Below, in pieces: positions 16,788 through 34,001 of a stretch of DNA of 51,290 nucleotides. The notes under the pieces were generated by a model. It was given only the letters and a program-made list of their open reading frames with translations, was not told where the DNA came from and did not search any database. Position 1 is the stretch's first letter, and every line of letters begins with the position of its first letter. Position numbers and translations under genes: made by a program. The stretch is from Candidatus Brocadia sp. (GTDB lineage Bacteria; Planctomycetota; Brocadiia; Brocadiales; Brocadiaceae): the NCBI GenBank assembly GCA_011525665.1, contig WYAU01000090.1, positions 1-51,290 of the forward strand. Direction: 5' to 3'.

Positions 16788-17789
16788 TCAGGTTGGTGCG
16801 ATATACTCTTTTTCTTGCTGGTCGGTACTTATCAGCTTGTTAATGGCATCCAGAACCGGTTCTTTGGAATTGTGGAATTTTGCGATGGGATTAACGATCG
16901 CAAGGCCTCGGTAATAGGTAACAAGCCCTTCTGCGATCTCTGTCATGATCTTGTTGAATGTACTTCGTTTCTTTGCCCTGGCAAGCTTCACCTCCGGGCC
17001 CTTGTCACCCGTAATGGGAATCCTTTCGTAACTGCCGAAATCCATTCGCAATATATTTATCATACCTCCCTGTCCGGACAGTTGATTTACAATCTCCGCA
17101 GAAGGCAACGAGGCAATATAGGCCAGAGGATAGGTGTAATCTTTATATTCTCCTTTCTGGAAGTAAAAATCACTTCGAATCCCCACTGTCTCAAAATAGT
17201 CCCGCACCCTTGCTAAACATTTTTTATTTACGGTGTCTTCATCTATTTCTTTGACCTGTTTGTTTGCAGTTTTCAACCTTCCCAGAATAATAGTAGTGGC
17301 AATAGCCCTGTCTTGTTGATAGGTCTTTACTTCAATTTGAATGTAGTCGTTACTTACAAACTGCCAGAGAAACAGACTGCATGTCCTTTCGTCATAATAG
17401 GCAGAACTCGTAAATTTTATATTTACCGAGGATATTTCTAATTCTGGGAAGAGAACTTCTAAGGGAAGGATGATCTTGGAAACAGTCATTGCTCCGGGAA
17501 CAATATTGCCCTTCCTGTGGATGAGATTGTTGTCGTTGGTTACATCGACGAAACGTTCTCCCTGCTGTTTAGAGACCTTATATTCATGCTTGATTAAAAA
17601 TTTATCCCAGACCAGAAGCCTTCGATCGTTATGGTGGTCTGTTTTCAGTGTTAGACCCGGATGTGGAGTCCGTGCCTTCGCATCCCGAAAACAAATTTTA
17701 TCGGTCACGAAGCCATCTGTTCGTTTGAGGGGTATTGAAAATATAGGGAATTGCGCTCTGCTCATAGAAGTATTATCGACAAAAAGCAT
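16788..17789 (-). CDS. MaoC-like hotdog-fold protein
   Basis: A 333-residue soluble protein. Residues 79-100 (RFVDVTNDNNLIHRKGNIVPGA) resemble the hydratase-2 motif of MaoC-like (R)-specific enoyl-CoA hydratases, where Asp and His five residues apart act on the substrate; here they are Asp86 and His91. The conserved Asn and Gly-Asp context is partly changed (TNDNN instead of SGDxN), so activity is uncertain. The next part (ELEISSVNIKFTSSAYY) fits the hotdog strands. The C-terminal 130 residues match nothing I recognise. It stands alone between a tRNA and a divergent operon. A role in fatty acyl or polyketide-like chemistry is inference. Confidence 0.6.
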   Translation of the reverse strand: MLFVDNTSMSRAQFPIFSIPLKRTDGFVTDKICFRDAKARTPHPGLTLKTDHHNDRRLLVWDKFLIKHEYKVSKQQGERFVDVTNDNNLIHRKGNIVPGAMTVSKIILPLEVLFPELEISSVNIKFTSSAYYDERTCSLFLWQFVSNDYIQIEVKTYQQDRAIATTIILGRLKTANKQVKEIDEDTVNKKCLARVRDYFETVGIRSDFYFQKGEYKDYTYPLAYIASLPSAEIVNQLSGQGGMINILRMDFGSYERIPITGDKGPEVKLARAKKRSTFNKIMTEIAEGLVTYYRGLAIVNPIAKFHNSKEPVLDAINKLISTDQQEKEYIAPT

Positions 17790-19576: not shown

Positions 19577-20284
19577 ATGGAAAAGGACATCAGACGCGAA
19601 CGGGTTATTATTGATACGAGTATTTTTACCAATCCGGAGGTCTATCAGTCATTTGGCACAAATCCAACGGAGGCATTGCGTACGTTTCTGGAGATTATTG
19701 GTGATCTGGACGGACCGGCTTTTTATATGCCCCCAACGATCTATCAGGAATTGACTAATTTTGTAGAAATAAAAGATATCCCCCCCGACCTTCAGATTCG
19801 TATAATCCAGAAACCACCAAAGCGGTATGAACTGTCGGTTCCCGCTTTTTTGCTGTATGAACTCATCGAGGATGTGCGTCACAGGATAGACAAGGGATTG
19901 CGGGTAGCAGAAGAGGCCATTCGGAAAAGGATTAACAAGGGATTAAAGGCAGCCGAGGAAATTGAGCGGAAGCGGAAGGCATCGATTGAAAAATCGGTCT
20001 TTCTTTTTCCGGATGTACGTATGACTGAAGAGATTCCACACAGAACCGAGTCGGAAGCATTGGAGGCCATTGCTATTGCTGATCTGAGGAAAAAGTATCG
20101 TGCCGCCCTCAGGGAAGGGATTATTGATAGTAAGGAGGACGTAGACCTGATCCTTCTTGCCAAGGAACTTGATGGCATATTGGTGACGGCCGACACGGGC
20201 ATTGTAAAATGGGCTGACAAGCTTGGTATCCGATACATCGATCCCCGTACGTTACGGGGTATACTTGACAAGCTGATGCAGTAA
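19577..20284 (+). CDS. HARP-type protein-only RNase P homologue (RNA ligase partner family)
   Basis: A 235-residue PIN-domain protein of the family once called RNA ligase partner (UPF0278/TIGR03875). Its Aquifex member is the minimal RNA-free RNase P that trims tRNA 5' leaders, and the family is now called HARP. The acidic residues expected for the metal site are present: Asp13 (VIIDTSIF), Asp184 and Asp188 (IIDSKEDVD) and Asp206 (LVTADTG). Residues about 90-170 form the helical spike region, with [15 protein letters not shown] (103-117) followed directly by a second copy [15 protein letters not shown] (118-132), 10 of 15 identical. This and the following insert make it about 40 residues longer than the Aquifex protein. 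It follows the glmU-like gene and converges on an RNA ligase gene. tRNA processing is inferred from family. Confidence 0.9.
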
Positions 20285-20390
20285 GTCTGTGAAAAGGAAT
20301 CATGAATTTCTCATATCTTACCCGTAAAACTGAATTTTCATGCCGGCCCGGGGTCAGGCGCTGGGGGCGCAAGGCTTCTGGCTTTGAAAA

Positions 20391-21515
20391 TTAGTCCACG
20401 TGGGCTGAACCTTCCAGGTGTTTCTGGAGGATATCATACGAGGCGTAACACTTTCTTGCGAACTTGACGTGCCAGTAGTTCCCCTCCTTGTTTTTCGATA
20501 ATACCTCGAACTTTACTTTGCATTTATAAAGGTGATCAATCATTCTCTGAACATTCTTCTCTTCCCGGAAGCGGAGGGAAAATTTTTCATCAATGATTTC
20601 ATTCCGTGCCGCCTTGCCAACATTTTCGTATACAGGTTTTAACAATACCTCTCCCAACTGGGTGAAAATTCCCGATTTTAATGAATGCGCATGCTCGTGC
20701 ATGAACATGGCCGCGCGAATGATCCGATGGGTAAAAAACTCCGATGCCATCTCTGCCATCAAAGGGGCAGTAACACGAATATCTCGCAGGCAGGACCCCA
20801 ATGTAACGTACTTTAAAATCTTTTCAGCAGTATGGGTTGGTTTTATTACGATCCCTTCGCATCCCGCCTCATCCAGCTCTTTAACAAGCTTTTTTAAATC
20901 TGAAATATCAGATGCTGAATACCGTCCGAACCTCCTTACCGTTGGTATGCCATAGGTATCGAAGATTTTATACCGTTCCTCAACAGAAATTTTCTGAGGT
21001 TTGCTCATTCTCATTATATCAAAAGCAAAAAATCGGACGTCTTCCCTCACATAAGGGGGGTGTTCAATGTTGTACGGATTCTCCGGACCGGCAAATTCTC
21101 CGCAAATAACAAGACCCGGATTTTCATCAAATATCTTTTTTACATCTAAAAAATCTGCAATCCGATCCGTCGAAAACGGGCAGATGTATGCACCACGTGA
21201 AAAAACTACGATACGACCCTGAACACGCGCTACCCTGACATTGTAACCGTCTACTTTTTCTTCAACATAAAAGGGTTGGCTATAGGCGTTGCGGATGCCA
21301 TTTTCCAGGTGCAATATTCGCGCAATACTTGGAAAATCAAAAATGATGCCCTCCGGGGTAACGAGAGATCCCTTTCCCAGAGTGCCAATTTTTTTTGTTA
21401 CCCGGTAAAGGTCAATACCGTCGAATTCCTCATGGACAACGTCGTGCTTTTCTGCCGAAGCCTGCCACAGGGTCTCGGAAATACCAGCCTGCTTCACAAT
21501 ATCATATATTTCCAT
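20391..21515 (-). CDS. Archaeal-type ATP-dependent RNA ligase (Pab1020/Rnl3 family)
   Basis: A 374-residue ligase of the family known mostly from archaea (TIGR01209), which joins RNA ends through an enzyme-AMP intermediate. The nucleotidyl-transfer Lys is Lys87 in EEKVDGYNVR (motif I, KxDG). Later motifs are ICGEFAGPENPY (III-like), FFAFDI (IIIa) and EGIVIKPT (IV/V). The C-terminal third is the dimerisation/helical part of the family. Biological substrates are not settled; RNA circularisation and repair are discussed. It is convergent with the HARP gene, 106 bases apart, the pairing that gave that family its old name. The gene looks intact. Transfer from archaea in the distant past is plausible but not shown. 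Confidence 0.9.
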   Translation of the reverse strand: MEIYDIVKQAGISETLWQASAEKHDVVHEEFDGIDLYRVTKKIGTLGKGSLVTPEGIIFDFPSIARILHLENGIRNAYSQPFYVEEKVDGYNVRVARVQGRIVVFSRGAYICPFSTDRIADFLDVKKIFDENPGLVICGEFAGPENPYNIEHPPYVREDVRFFAFDIMRMSKPQKISVEERYKIFDTYGIPTVRRFGRYSASDISDLKKLVKELDEAGCEGIVIKPTHTAEKILKYVTLGSCLRDIRVTAPLMAEMASEFFTHRIIRAAMFMHEHAHSLKSGIFTQLGEVLLKPVYENVGKAARNEIIDEKFSLRFREEKNVQRMIDHLYKCKVKFEVLSKNKEGNYWHVKFARKCYASYDILQKHLEGSAHVD

Positions 21516-21706: not shown

Positions 21707-21735
21707 TTGACTTCAAAAAGACATAATCGTATAAT
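21707..21735 (+). promoter_or_regulatory. Predicted promoter of the DHH phosphoesterase gene
   Basis: TTGACT (21707-21712), 17-base spacer, TATAAT (21730-21735), about 50 bases before the ATG at 21789. Near-consensus with ideal spacing. Confidence 0.65.
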
Positions 21736-21788: not shown

Positions 21789-23261
21789 ATGTATATAATT
21801 TTTGGTTGCGATGACATCGGATGTGAATTGGCCAGAAATCTAAGTAAATCCGGCGAGGAGGTACTGGTAATCGGTAATGATGAAACGGCTTTAGGCGCGG
21901 TGAAAGCCCCTAACCTCCAAATGTTCACAGCGGATGTCCATGCAGTGGACTTTGAATCGTTGCCGGCAAAAGACGCCATAGCGTTCATACTCCTGCAGAA
22001 AAGTTTTGACGATAACTTGGCCCTGGCAAGACGTATCAGAAAATCATTTCCGGATAAATTTATATTATCAAGGGCTACGGGCGAAAAAGAGGAATCTGAA
22101 TTATTGGGAAACGGCGTGGATCAGATTATTCAAACAGTCAGAATCCTTACAAACGCAATCCGGAATGAACTGGAAACGGCAAAATTAAAAAGATCGGTTT
22201 TTCGTTTGGTTAGTGTCATTAAGGAAGCGACAGGGAGGGGTTTGGCGATTTTTCTCCAGGACAACCCCGACCCCGATGCAATTGCCTCGGGTTTTGCGCT
22301 CAAGCGCATTGCCGAAAAATACGATATTAAATCCAATATTTATTATGGTGGAAATATCGGGCGTCAGCAAAATAAGACGTTGGTCAATTTATTGGAAACC
22401 GAACTCATTCGATTAAAAACCCCGGAAGAGGCTCTCCATATAACTCATGCAGTTGATAAAGTGGCATTGATAGAGGCCTCCATTTCTTCAAAGAACAATA
22501 TATTACCGGCAGAGATAATTCCCCATATTATCATTGATCATCATCAAACAGACTTTAATCTCGTGAAAGGGGAATTCGTTGAAATATTGCCAAAAATAGG
22601 AGCCAACTCTACTATCATGACAAGATATCTGAGGCATCTGAATATCATCCCTGACCCGCCCCTCGCTACAGCGCTTCGTTACGGAATCAGGGTGGACACG
22701 TGCGGATTCACCAGAAACACGACCACCGAGGACCTTGATGCGGCTGCTTATCTTTCCCCCCTGCTGGATGTTGGTCTGTTGAACCAAATTGAAAACCCCC
22801 CCATGAGTGCCGAAACTATTGATATTATTGGAAGGACCATACGAAATCGGGAGGTTCGAGGTTCGTATCTGATATCTTTTGTTGAATTTATAACCGATCG
22901 GGATGCATTGCCGCAGGCGGCTGAATTAATGTTACAGATGGAAGGTATTTCTACCGTTCTTGTTTTTGGCATTGACAAGGACAAAGTTCAGTTATCCGCC
23001 CGAAGCGTAGATACAAGAATTAATCTTGCTTTTTTGCTGCAAAAAGCATTTGGCTTTATGAACGCCGGCGGACATGCTACTATGGCGGCCGGCTGCATAG
23101 ACTTGGGCATTTTTGGGGATGTAACGGATAAAAAATCACTTTTGAGAATTACCTTTGATGCCGTAAGGAAGAAGTTTTTCACAGCAGTGGGAATAGATAT
23201 AGAAAAGCGGGAAATACCTGATGAGTTAGAGTTGATGGTCAGCAACAGCACCAAGAGTTGA
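21789..23261 (+). CDS. TrkA-N/DHH/DHHA1 fusion phosphoesterase
   Basis: A 490-residue protein with three parts. Residues 1-115 are a Rossmann-type TrkA-N (RCK-like) domain (IIFGCDDIGCELARNL). Residues about 145-330 are a DHH phosphoesterase core with DNPDPDAIASG, IIIDHHQTDF and RYGIRVDTCGF, which hold its metal-binding Asp and His residues. Residues about 365-470 are DHHA1, with GGHATMAAG. Such proteins are related to nanoRNase/cyclic-dinucleotide phosphodiesterases; the RCK domain could sense a nucleotide. Whether the substrate is c-di-AMP, pAp or short RNA cannot be read. The lipoprotein gene follows 41 bases past the stop, on the same strand. No membrane segments. Confidence 0.85.
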   Translation: MYIIFGCDDIGCELARNLSKSGEEVLVIGNDETALGAVKAPNLQMFTADVHAVDFESLPAKDAIAFILLQKSFDDNLALARRIRKSFPDKFILSRATGEKEESELLGNGVDQIIQTVRILTNAIRNELETAKLKRSVFRLVSVIKEATGRGLAIFLQDNPDPDAIASGFALKRIAEKYDIKSNIYYGGNIGRQQNKTLVNLLETELIRLKTPEEALHITHAVDKVALIEASISSKNNILPAEIIPHIIIDHHQTDFNLVKGEFVEILPKIGANSTIMTRYLRHLNIIPDPPLATALRYGIRVDTCGFTRNTTTEDLDAAAYLSPLLDVGLLNQIENPPMSAETIDIIGRTIRNREVRGSYLISFVEFITDRDALPQAAELMLQMEGISTVLVFGIDKDKVQLSARSVDTRINLAFLLQKAFGFMNAGGHATMAAGCIDLGIFGDVTDKKSLLRITFDAVRKKFFTAVGIDIEKREIPDELELMVSNSTKS

Positions 23262-23302
23262 CCGTAATTAAGTATTTATTTTATAGAGAAGGAGAAAGAA
23301 TT

Positions 23303-24238
23303 ATGGGAAAAGGGTTTTTGGGGATAGGTTTAATAAGTCTTACAATTTTTTTAAGTTCTTGTGTTGCCACCCAGCAGCAAGTAAAGGAAGAAAGGGAGCC
23401 AGAATTAAAGGTGGAAGTAAAGGCAGAGCCGCTTAAGGAAGAGGTAACTCCGGAAACACCCGCTCCTGGAGAAGAAGCTGTTGCTCCAGAAGTCCCAGAA
23501 GCGACTGCGCCGGCATCTCCTGAAACCCCGGCAGAAGCTGCACCTGAAGCCCCGCAAGCAGGTGAGCCAACCACTCCGGCAGAAGCTCCAGAGGCTGCGG
23601 CGCCAGTAGCTCCGGAAACTCCGGTCGCTGAAGAACCGGAAACTCCACCCACAGCAGAACCGGTTGCTCCTGAAGCCCCAGAGTCAGCGGCTCCGGAAGC
23701 AGCCGCGCCCGTGGCTCCGGCTCCCGAGGTTGTTGCACCTCCGGCAGAAGAGGAAGAACCAGCGGAACATCCCGTAAAACCTGAAGAAGAAAAGGCAGAG
23801 GTATTGCCTCCCGAGGGGCAGGAATCCAGGGCGGAGGGATTACGGCAATGTGCCACCTGTAATAAAGAGGCAGGGGAAGGACACATCTGTGGTCTTACTA
23901 CCTATTGTCAGCAATGCAGGGAAGAGGTCGGTTCCGGCCATATTTGTGATTTAACTTTCTTTTGCCATGATTGTAAAAAAGAAGTGGGAGATGGCCATAT
24001 CTGCGGAATAACGGCTTTTTGCCCAACGTGCGAGGAGGAAGTTGGACCTGGCCATATCTGTGATGTAACCTATTTTTGTTATGATTGCGAGAAAGAAGTG
24101 GGAGATGAGCACATTTGTGGTGTCACGCAATTTTGCTTCACCTGCAAGGCAGAAGTCGGAGAAGGACATGAGTGCGGAAGAACCTACTTCTGTTTTGATT
24201 GCGAGAAAGAAGTGCCGAAGGACCACCGGCATGAATAG
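23303..24238 (+). CDS. Lipoprotein with Pro/Ala/Glu-rich linker and tandem Cys/His modules
   Basis: A 311-residue exported lipoprotein. The start at 23303 is chosen because AAGGAGA lies just upstream and the product begins with a lipobox signal (MGKGFLGIGLISLT..LSSC, lipid Cys near residue 20). Residues about 25-180 are a low-complexity linker rich in Pro, Ala and Glu. From 23849 six units of exactly 19 residues follow, each CX2CX7HXC then a hydrophobic pair (for example CHDCKKEVGDGHICGITAF), and a partial seventh ending HRHE. Each unit offers three Cys and one His, a likely zinc or other metal site. I do not recognise the family. Role in metal binding, redox or protein contact outside the cytoplasm is inference. 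It shares the transcript of the DHH gene. Confidence 0.8.
   Translation: MGKGFLGIGLISLTIFLSSCVATQQQVKEEREPELKVEVKAEPLKEEVTPETPAPGEEAVAPEVPEATAPASPETPAEAAPEAPQAGEPTTPAEAPEAAAPVAPETPVAEEPETPPTAEPVAPEAPESAAPEAAAPVAPAPEVVAPPAEEEEPAEHPVKPEEEKAEVLPPEGQESRAEGLRQCATCNKEAGEGHICGLTTYCQQCREEVGSGHICDLTFFCHDCKKEVGDGHICGITAFCPTCEEEVGPGHICDVTYFCYDCEKEVGDEHICGVTQFCFTCKAEVGEGHECGRTYFCFDCEKEVPKDHRHE
23849..24235 (+). repeat. Six and a half in-frame 57-bp repeats
   Basis: Six 57-base units (23849-24190) encode the 19-residue CX2CX7HXC modules of the lipoprotein; a shortened seventh unit occupies 24191-24235. Units 3 and 5 (CHDCKK, CYDCEK) resemble each other more than they do units 2 and 4, hinting at duplication of a two-module block. 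Confidence 0.8.
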
Positions 24239-24277
24239 GCGTAAAGTAAGTTTTTTTTGAGAATTCAGGGTATATCG

Positions 24278-24314
24278 AAAAAGGCATGTTTCACACTGAA
24301 ACATGCCTTTTTTA
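24278..24314. terminator. Intrinsic terminator after the lipoprotein gene
   Basis: Perfect 14-bp stem AAAAAGGCATGTTT / AAACATGCCTTTTT with a seven-base loop and a T run. The A run on the other side makes it usable in both directions, but dinB ends more than 250 bases away, so it mainly serves the plus-strand operon. Confidence 0.85.
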
Positions 24315-32925: not shown

Positions 32926-33225
32926 CTACAAATACTGAATAACCCTCGTCCTTCCGTATTCCCTTCCATCCCGGCCAATCTTTAACACCCCGAACCGTAT
33001 TGTTGCAATTCGGGAAATGTCGTTTACAGGCGTGAAGAGTTTTATATTGCCTCCCAAAGGGTCTAAATCAATAATTGTGCCAAGACCCAGTGTATTATTG
33101 CCTTTGTCATTGAGGCCAACGAGGAGGTCGTTTAGTGCATGCCTTTCGATGAATACAACCGAGGAAACGCCAAAGTGACCTTTTAGTTTATCGAATGGCG
33201 CCACTACATTTCTATCGTCCGCCAT
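32926..33225 (-). pseudogene. C-terminal domain of split polynucleotide kinase
   Basis: 99 codons whose product (LVGLNDKGNNTLGLGTIIDL, then IKLFTPVNDISRIATIRFG) matches the C-terminal beta-domain of Clp1/Grc3-like kinases. It starts with an ATG overlapping the preceding TAA by one base (TAATG). Reading further upstream in the same frame gives KCGTELLVMADDRN, so it was probably joined to the kinase by one reading frame. It may still be made by reinitiation. Confidence 0.65.
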
Positions 33226-34001
33226 TACCAGCAGTTCGGTGCCGCATTTTTCAGGTACAGATGGTTCATATCATGAATACAGTATTCCTTTGGCAACTCA
33301 TGGGGATGTATCCTTCGGCCCGTACCCAGAATACCGGATGGGAATACCACCTTATGGATTGGACATTCCTTGATTTTTGCCGGTTTGAAATATGCCTGAT
33401 ACTTTTCGCTCCGGTACCTCTGCCTTTCGGCCTGTGAACGGGTCGCTACGTGTTTCGGGCACGCCAGACGTATGACATGCCATCCCATTTTTTCATATCC
33501 TTTTAAAAGATGTTCCATCTCGTCTTCTGCCTGTAACGCAAGAATCCATTGCGGACGGAGCATTTCTAGCTTGTGCAGTTTCAGGATACGGGCGACAGGG
33601 CCGTCGATAAAACCCGTAGTGTCTACAAGGGTGATTTGGGCGCCTTGCCGCAGGGATATATTGACCATCAGTTTTACTGCATGCAGTGTCTGCAACAAAA
33701 AGCCTTCAGGTGCCGTATTACCAACGAAGTGCAGATACGAGGGATTTGCATAATCACCTGCGTCGGGTGGGGTAGTGAAATTTTTTAAGCTTACCGTGGT
33801 TGGCGGGCCTAAGGTGGATTGGCCTAAGTCACTGTCGATATACCCAACACGTATTCCGGAAGCCGTCCATGTACGGATCAGGTATTTACACAGGGTGCTC
33901 TTGCCACTATCGGTTTTTCCAAGAACGATGCATATTTTTGTGTTGTGTTTTATTCGCCCAGCAACCAGCTCCCATTCTCCGGGGATATCGATTTTGTCCA
34001 T
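33225..34001 (-). CDS. Clp1/Grc3-like polynucleotide 5'-kinase, N-terminal and kinase part
   Basis: 258 residues with Walker A GKTDSGKST (28-36), the lid/substrate block GYIDSDLGQSTLGPPTTVSL (54-73) and VDTTGFIDGP, all typical of Clp1_P kinases, which phosphorylate 5'-OH RNA or DNA ends in archaea and eukaryotes. Bacterial members are rare. The frame ends early (LKNAAPNCW) at a five-A run (33247-33251): a -1 shift there, or one more A, would continue into the C-terminal domain encoded at 32926-33225. The start overlaps the recJ stop by one base (TAATG), so it is translationally coupled to recJ. Function in RNA or DNA end repair is inferred. Confidence 0.75.
   Translation of the reverse strand: MDKIDIPGEWELVAGRIKHNTKICIVLGKTDSGKSTLCKYLIRTWTASGIRVGYIDSDLGQSTLGPPTTVSLKNFTTPPDAGDYANPSYLHFVGNTAPEGFLLQTLHAVKLMVNISLRQGAQITLVDTTGFIDGPVARILKLHKLEMLRPQWILALQAEDEMEHLLKGYEKMGWHVIRLACPKHVATRSQAERQRYRSEKYQAYFKPAKIKECPIHKVVFPSGILGTGRRIHPHELPKEYCIHDMNHLYLKNAAPNCW

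Follow-up and report, generated by a model that had tools for sequence, protein, structure and literature searches.

Arrays of zinc-finger type are known to serve as binding platforms inside cells, and zinc ribbons consist of CxxC...CxxC pairs, unlike the 19-residue C-x2-C-x7-H-x-C repeats described here. The C2HC zinc-finger array of human Cep104 (PDB 5lpi) binds Nek1 and CP110 (PMC5222566). The window analysed in this work, a 51,290-nt stretch of a Candidatus Brocadia sp. contig, encodes a predicted lipoprotein with an array that resembles the Cep104 array in its tandem C2HC metal modules and its conserved, charged surface, except that Cep104 is eukaryotic, is not an exported lipoprotein, and packs its four fingers as a globule. 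The two arrays show no sequence match, and the comparison is one of analogy rather than membership; Cep104 offers the nearest precedent for an array in the role of protein-binding platform, a role proposed for the window array by analogy. Metallothioneins are likewise Cys-rich, and the seven metals predicted for the window array recall them. In contrast to what is generally known of metallothioneins, the window array lacks C-x-C clusters and is predicted to have regular secondary structure; it also has one four-ligand set per unit and strong conservation of non-ligand residues. A search of open PMC papers retrieved no description of the lipoprotein.

The gene and the N-terminal part of its product have the following features:

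23289-23294, + strand: AAGGAG, a Shine-Dalgarno-like sequence 5′ of the lipoprotein gene
23303..24238, + strand: lipoprotein gene, 311 aa, ATG start, with orthologues in 31/33 Brocadiaceae genomes
23303..23362, + strand: lipoprotein signal peptide, residues 1-20, assigned from sequence
23351-23362, + strand: lipobox LSSC, residues 17-20, with Cys20 as the predicted lipidated residue
23363..23848, + strand: Pro/Ala/Glu-rich linker, 162 residues, pI ~4, no Cys

Based on its signal peptide and lipobox, the protein is predicted to be exported and lipidated. Inspection of the sequences of Brocadiaceae proteins reveals an L-x-S-C lipobox in 26/26 (LSSC, LNSC, LCSC, LTSC, LVSC or LASC). The linker, which spans the region from the lipidated Cys to the first Cys of the array, is 68% Pro, Ala and Glu; the linkers of relatives are 96-267 residues long, and Cys is absent from every one of them. 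The open reading frame, lipobox and repeat units were all found where the preliminary description had placed them, and the linker is long and stalk-like as described, with a length of 162 rather than 150 residues.

The array is composed of six 19-residue C-x2-C-x7-H-x-C units followed by one 14-residue C-x2-C-x7-H-x-H unit:

23849..23905, + strand: unit 1, CATCNKEAGEGHICGLTTY (CCHC)
23906..23962, + strand: unit 2, CQQCREEVGSGHICDLTFF (CCHC)
23963..24019, + strand: unit 3, CHDCKKEVGDGHICGITAF (CCHC)
24020..24076, + strand: unit 4, CPTCEEEVGPGHICDVTYF (CCHC)
24077..24133, + strand: unit 5, CYDCEKEVGDEHICGVTQF (CCHC), the best conserved unit (92%)
24134..24190, + strand: unit 6, CFTCKAEVGEGHECGRTYF (CCHC)
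24191..24232, + strand: unit 7, CFDCEKEVPKDHRH (CCHH), the terminal site, with a final His invariant in 23 orthologues

The seven four-ligand sites thus formed follow each other at an exact 19-residue spacing and place 20 Cys and 8 ligand His within 128 residues. The preliminary description recognised six modules and a partial seventh; the six are confirmed, while unit 7 has a full CCHH ligand set and lacks only the 5-residue spacer. When the array was shuffled 100,000 times, the maximum was 3 motifs, reached in 1 shuffle, compared with 7 observed, indicating that the array is not a product of chance. In the orthologous units, the C, C and H of the first three ligand positions are invariant in 161/161, and the fourth position is C in 138 and H in 23. 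Across the 23 orthologues, ligand positions are never occupied by anything other than Cys or His, in support of the earlier reading of the units as tandem metal-type modules. In the window array, no CxxC motif has a His directly after it; haem binding was rejected on the grounds that the CXXCH motif of c-type cytochromes does not occur in the array. The pI of the array is 4.8, which makes nucleic-acid binding unlikely, and this candidate was set aside as well.

The median dN/dS is 0.037 (86 unsaturated pairs among 23 orthologues, most pairs being synonymously saturated), a value that indicates strong purifying selection on the array. The presence of orthologues in other genera, mostly at saturated synonymous distance and with a ratio of ~0.04, argues for a conserved protein-coding feature. 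Furthermore, non-ligand residues show an identity of 0.80 when one unit is compared across species and of 0.46 when the units of a protein are compared with each other, and the best match of a unit is its own position for 129/132 units. Such position-by-position conservation is expected if each unit keeps its own surface and is not required of a simple metal sponge; it is also compatible with a metal carrier that folds precisely. Of the complete Brocadiaceae proteins, 27 contain seven units, and four, from Kuenenia-type genomes and one other genus (loci L039, L040, L097 and L098), contain eight, with the extra unit near the N-terminal end of the array. This fixed copy number, seven or, in Kuenenia and one other genus, eight, suggests that the units are autonomous. 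A recent repeat expansion or VNTR was rejected, since the units are conserved by position and their copy number is stable.

AlphaFold2 models of the window array (mean pLDDT 81, pTM 0.49) and of an eight-unit Kuenenia array (mean pLDDT 83, pTM 0.62), with no more than one or two confident models out of five in each job, agree in predicting one β-hairpin per 19 residues, with the CxxC at its tip. Comparison of the models with the PDB by Foldseek and VIA-align gave no significant fold match. The weak Foldseek neighbours are mostly zinc-binding proteins and include the Cep104 array, for which the values (5lpi; E 2.6, prob 0.07, TMq 0.15) fall short of structural similarity. A sequence search of PDB chains likewise yielded nothing significant, and Pfam, NCBIfam and PHROGs yielded no family above the curated cut-off (or significant where no cut-off exists), in line with the earlier remark that no named family with this layout was known. 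Pfam Zn_ribbon_6 (PF07191) aligns with units 1-3 at 21.1 bits (E 3.1e-4), below its 25-bit cut-off, and a distant relative, L112, exceeds that cut-off in its irregular C-terminal part; CxxC knuckles are common to the window array and to Zn_ribbon_6 and double zinc ribbons.

A contig search with the Brocadiaceae array, covering all phyla, placed the closest relatives among named genomes in Candidatus Brocadia, Jettenia, Kuenenia and Loosdrechtia, which identifies the host as an anammox planctomycete of the Brocadiaceae. The two Brocadiaceae genomes without the gene are 58% and 83% complete, and the gene was found in 0/29 genomes from four other families of the same order, which likely include Scalinduaceae and Bathyanammoxibiaceae (PMC12758564). 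Hydrazine synthase alpha is present in most genomes of three of the four families without the lipoprotein gene. Absences of the HZS domain are uninformative, because it is also undetected in several Brocadiaceae assemblies, that of the window included. The lipoprotein is a predicted family-specific envelope protein, single-copy in nearly all Brocadiaceae genomes, and its gene is a marker that distinguishes Brocadiaceae from other anammox families. Searches of phages, plasmids and viral contigs gave no matches, and an origin from any of the three was rejected.

Outside Brocadiaceae, related arrays occur in 10 of the ~390 planctomycete genomes sampled: 9 were detected with a three-unit profile and one more with a broader profile, both of these sensitive profiles having been run on whole genomes of Planctomycetota only. 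Judged from these matches, the window protein belongs to a scattered planctomycete family, of which it is a highly regular member, and is no orphan. The distant relatives that were read are short and have lipobox-like N-termini where the start is present; their spacing is irregular, CCHH units are frequent, and the C-terminus lies near an H-x-H in 8/10. Their fourth ligand position is C in 32 and H in 27 cases, and one unit type has CxxH. The H-x-[CH]-x5-C-x2-[CH] spacing is constant in 49/50, whereas the C-x2-[CH]-x7-H spacing, found in 46/58, is less so.

Several of these relatives have distinctive contexts. The bin GWA2_39_15 holds three arrays, and one paralogue (L038:1012-3290) combines a hydrophobic stretch, HEAT repeats, a Big_5 Ig-like domain and six units; an ORF just upstream, overlapping it in another frame, resembles a J-domain protein. 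The array lipoprotein at L113:3373-5438 has nearby genes that Pfam assigns to a YukD-like ubiquitin fold, an E2 (UQ_con) and a JAB protease, and L108 and L114, from the same non-anammox family, have like neighbours as judged by similar sequence. A gene with the sequence appearance of a phosphomannomutase/phosphoglucomutase lies directly 5′ of the array lipoprotein at L111:17-1363, L112:1573-2904 and L116:4955-6394.

We consider the chances about even that the array is a structural, zinc-finger-like platform for protein binding, displayed outside the cytoplasm on a stalk, with Zn2+ as the most likely metal. Specifically, the long acidic Pro/Ala/Glu stalk would hold seven metal-stabilised modules away from the membrane. 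Each module would consist of a short β-hairpin, with the CxxC turn at its tip, and an H-x-C (H-x-H in unit 7), whose four ligands would together hold one tetrahedral ion, with structural Zn2+ the likeliest candidate. Such modules in series could then form a stiff acidic rod, with individually conserved faces positioned to bind one or more envelope partners. Here the hairpins and the lipidation are predicted, and we infer zinc, the stoichiometry of one ion per unit, the extracytoplasmic display and the protein-binding role. The lipoprotein gene is probably co-transcribed with a DHH phosphoesterase gene, yet its product would act outside the cytoplasm. More speculatively, and with considerable doubt, the protein could represent an undescribed planctomycete family of exported lipoproteins, with strings of C-x2-C-x7-H-x-[CH] zinc modules and a CCHH cap, that form a stalked, metal-stabilised and possibly zinc-bridged rod organising the Brocadiaceae envelope. 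If true, a long regular array that is carried beyond the membrane by a lipid and a stalk, and that has stayed nearly the same across Brocadiaceae, bacteria important for nitrogen removal, would put structural metal to unusual use.

Of the roles suggested in the preliminary description, a scaffold is the one we prefer; metal storage is possible and fits poorly, and a haem-related delivery role is unsupported. As an extracytoplasmic store or buffer, the seven sites would hold metal, zinc in particular, either to supply the envelope or to limit metal toxicity, which would agree with the predicted export and tethering of the protein and with the 20 Cys and 8 ligand His arranged as a full set per unit. 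Yet a store would need nothing but ligands, and here each unit also conserves its own non-ligand residues (0.80 versus 0.46), the copy number is fixed, and no metal transporter or regulator was recognised among the neighbouring genes examined. Because of the fixed copy number and the unit-specific conservation, we regard storage as unlikely, and as less likely than a protein-binding platform. A factor for metal delivery to, or maturation of, envelope metalloproteins, haem proteins included, would suit the host, since anammox bacteria have a very large load of extracytoplasmic metalloproteins. However, the gene is absent from other hydrazine-synthase-bearing families, relatives are found beyond the anammox order, CXXCH is missing from the array, and four-ligand Cys/His sites usually hold metal tightly; delivery is therefore highly improbable.

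The ligands themselves bear on two further readings. With 20 Cys and CxxC motifs outside the cytoplasm, the protein could instead be redox-active through its CxxC motifs, or crosslink the envelope through disulphides. Neither activity accounts for an invariant His and three Cys per unit, or for the exchange of Cys for His at the fourth and occasionally the second ligand; such exchange is expected of a metal site, which is therefore favoured over disulphides, and we judge a thiol/disulphide protein quite unlikely. Alternatively, the H-x-C of one unit could pair with the CxxC of the unit after it, so that the first CxxC and the last H-x-H would be free to join molecules into a zinc-bridged, head-to-tail polymer. 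The H-x-C-x5-CxxC spacing that would define such sites varies less than any other feature in distant relatives, CxxC-x7-HxC included, and to judge from these spacings this counts against deciding for within-unit pairing. Pairing within units, on the other hand, uses all 28 ligands, leaving none orphaned, and tolerates a one-unit change in copy number; the step from seven to eight fits autonomous units, and a polymer seems very remote. The stalked protein-binding platform is the reading we favour.

The lipoprotein gene follows a DHH-family gene, and the surrounding signals are as follows:

21707..21735, + strand: promoter-like site upstream of the DHH gene (TTGACT, spacing of 17, TATAAT; 11/12, a consensus match only)
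21789..23261, + strand: TrkA_N-DHH-DHHA1 gene (Pfam), 490 aa, ending 41 bases 5′ of the lipoprotein start
24277..24313, + strand: terminator-like hairpin 3′ of the lipoprotein gene, with a 17-bp stem and a T run

In the gap between the genes, consensus matching identified no promoter-like site on the + strand. Together with the strong promoter-like site before the DHH gene and the hairpin after the lipoprotein gene, this makes it likely that the two form a bicistron. The DHH gene is directly upstream of the lipoprotein gene in 23/23 Brocadiaceae loci with testable contigs. Of 19 genomes from sister anammox families, 16 carry the DHH gene, with other genes after it, and the flanking sequence fetched around the distant relatives contains no DHH gene. 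The co-occurrence raised in the preliminary description therefore extends to Brocadiaceae, but not to the other anammox families, where the DHH gene persists without the lipoprotein. This pattern is one-family synteny and no evidence of joint function, and a functional link through the DHH neighbour was rejected. The lipoprotein gene probably arrived behind a pre-existing DHH gene in the Brocadiaceae lineage, or else was lost from the other families.

Elsewhere in the window, positions 19577-21515 and 33225-34001 encode proteins of RNA-processing type, namely a PIN_5 nuclease, a Pab1020-like RNA ligase (Lig_C) and a CLP1_P kinase domain; many Brocadiaceae retain the PIN_5 nuclease and RNA ligase genes upstream of the DHH gene. 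A 333-aa protein encoded on the − strand (16788-17789), with no Pfam match at 1e-5, is 78-85% conserved near the lipoprotein locus in many Brocadiaceae.
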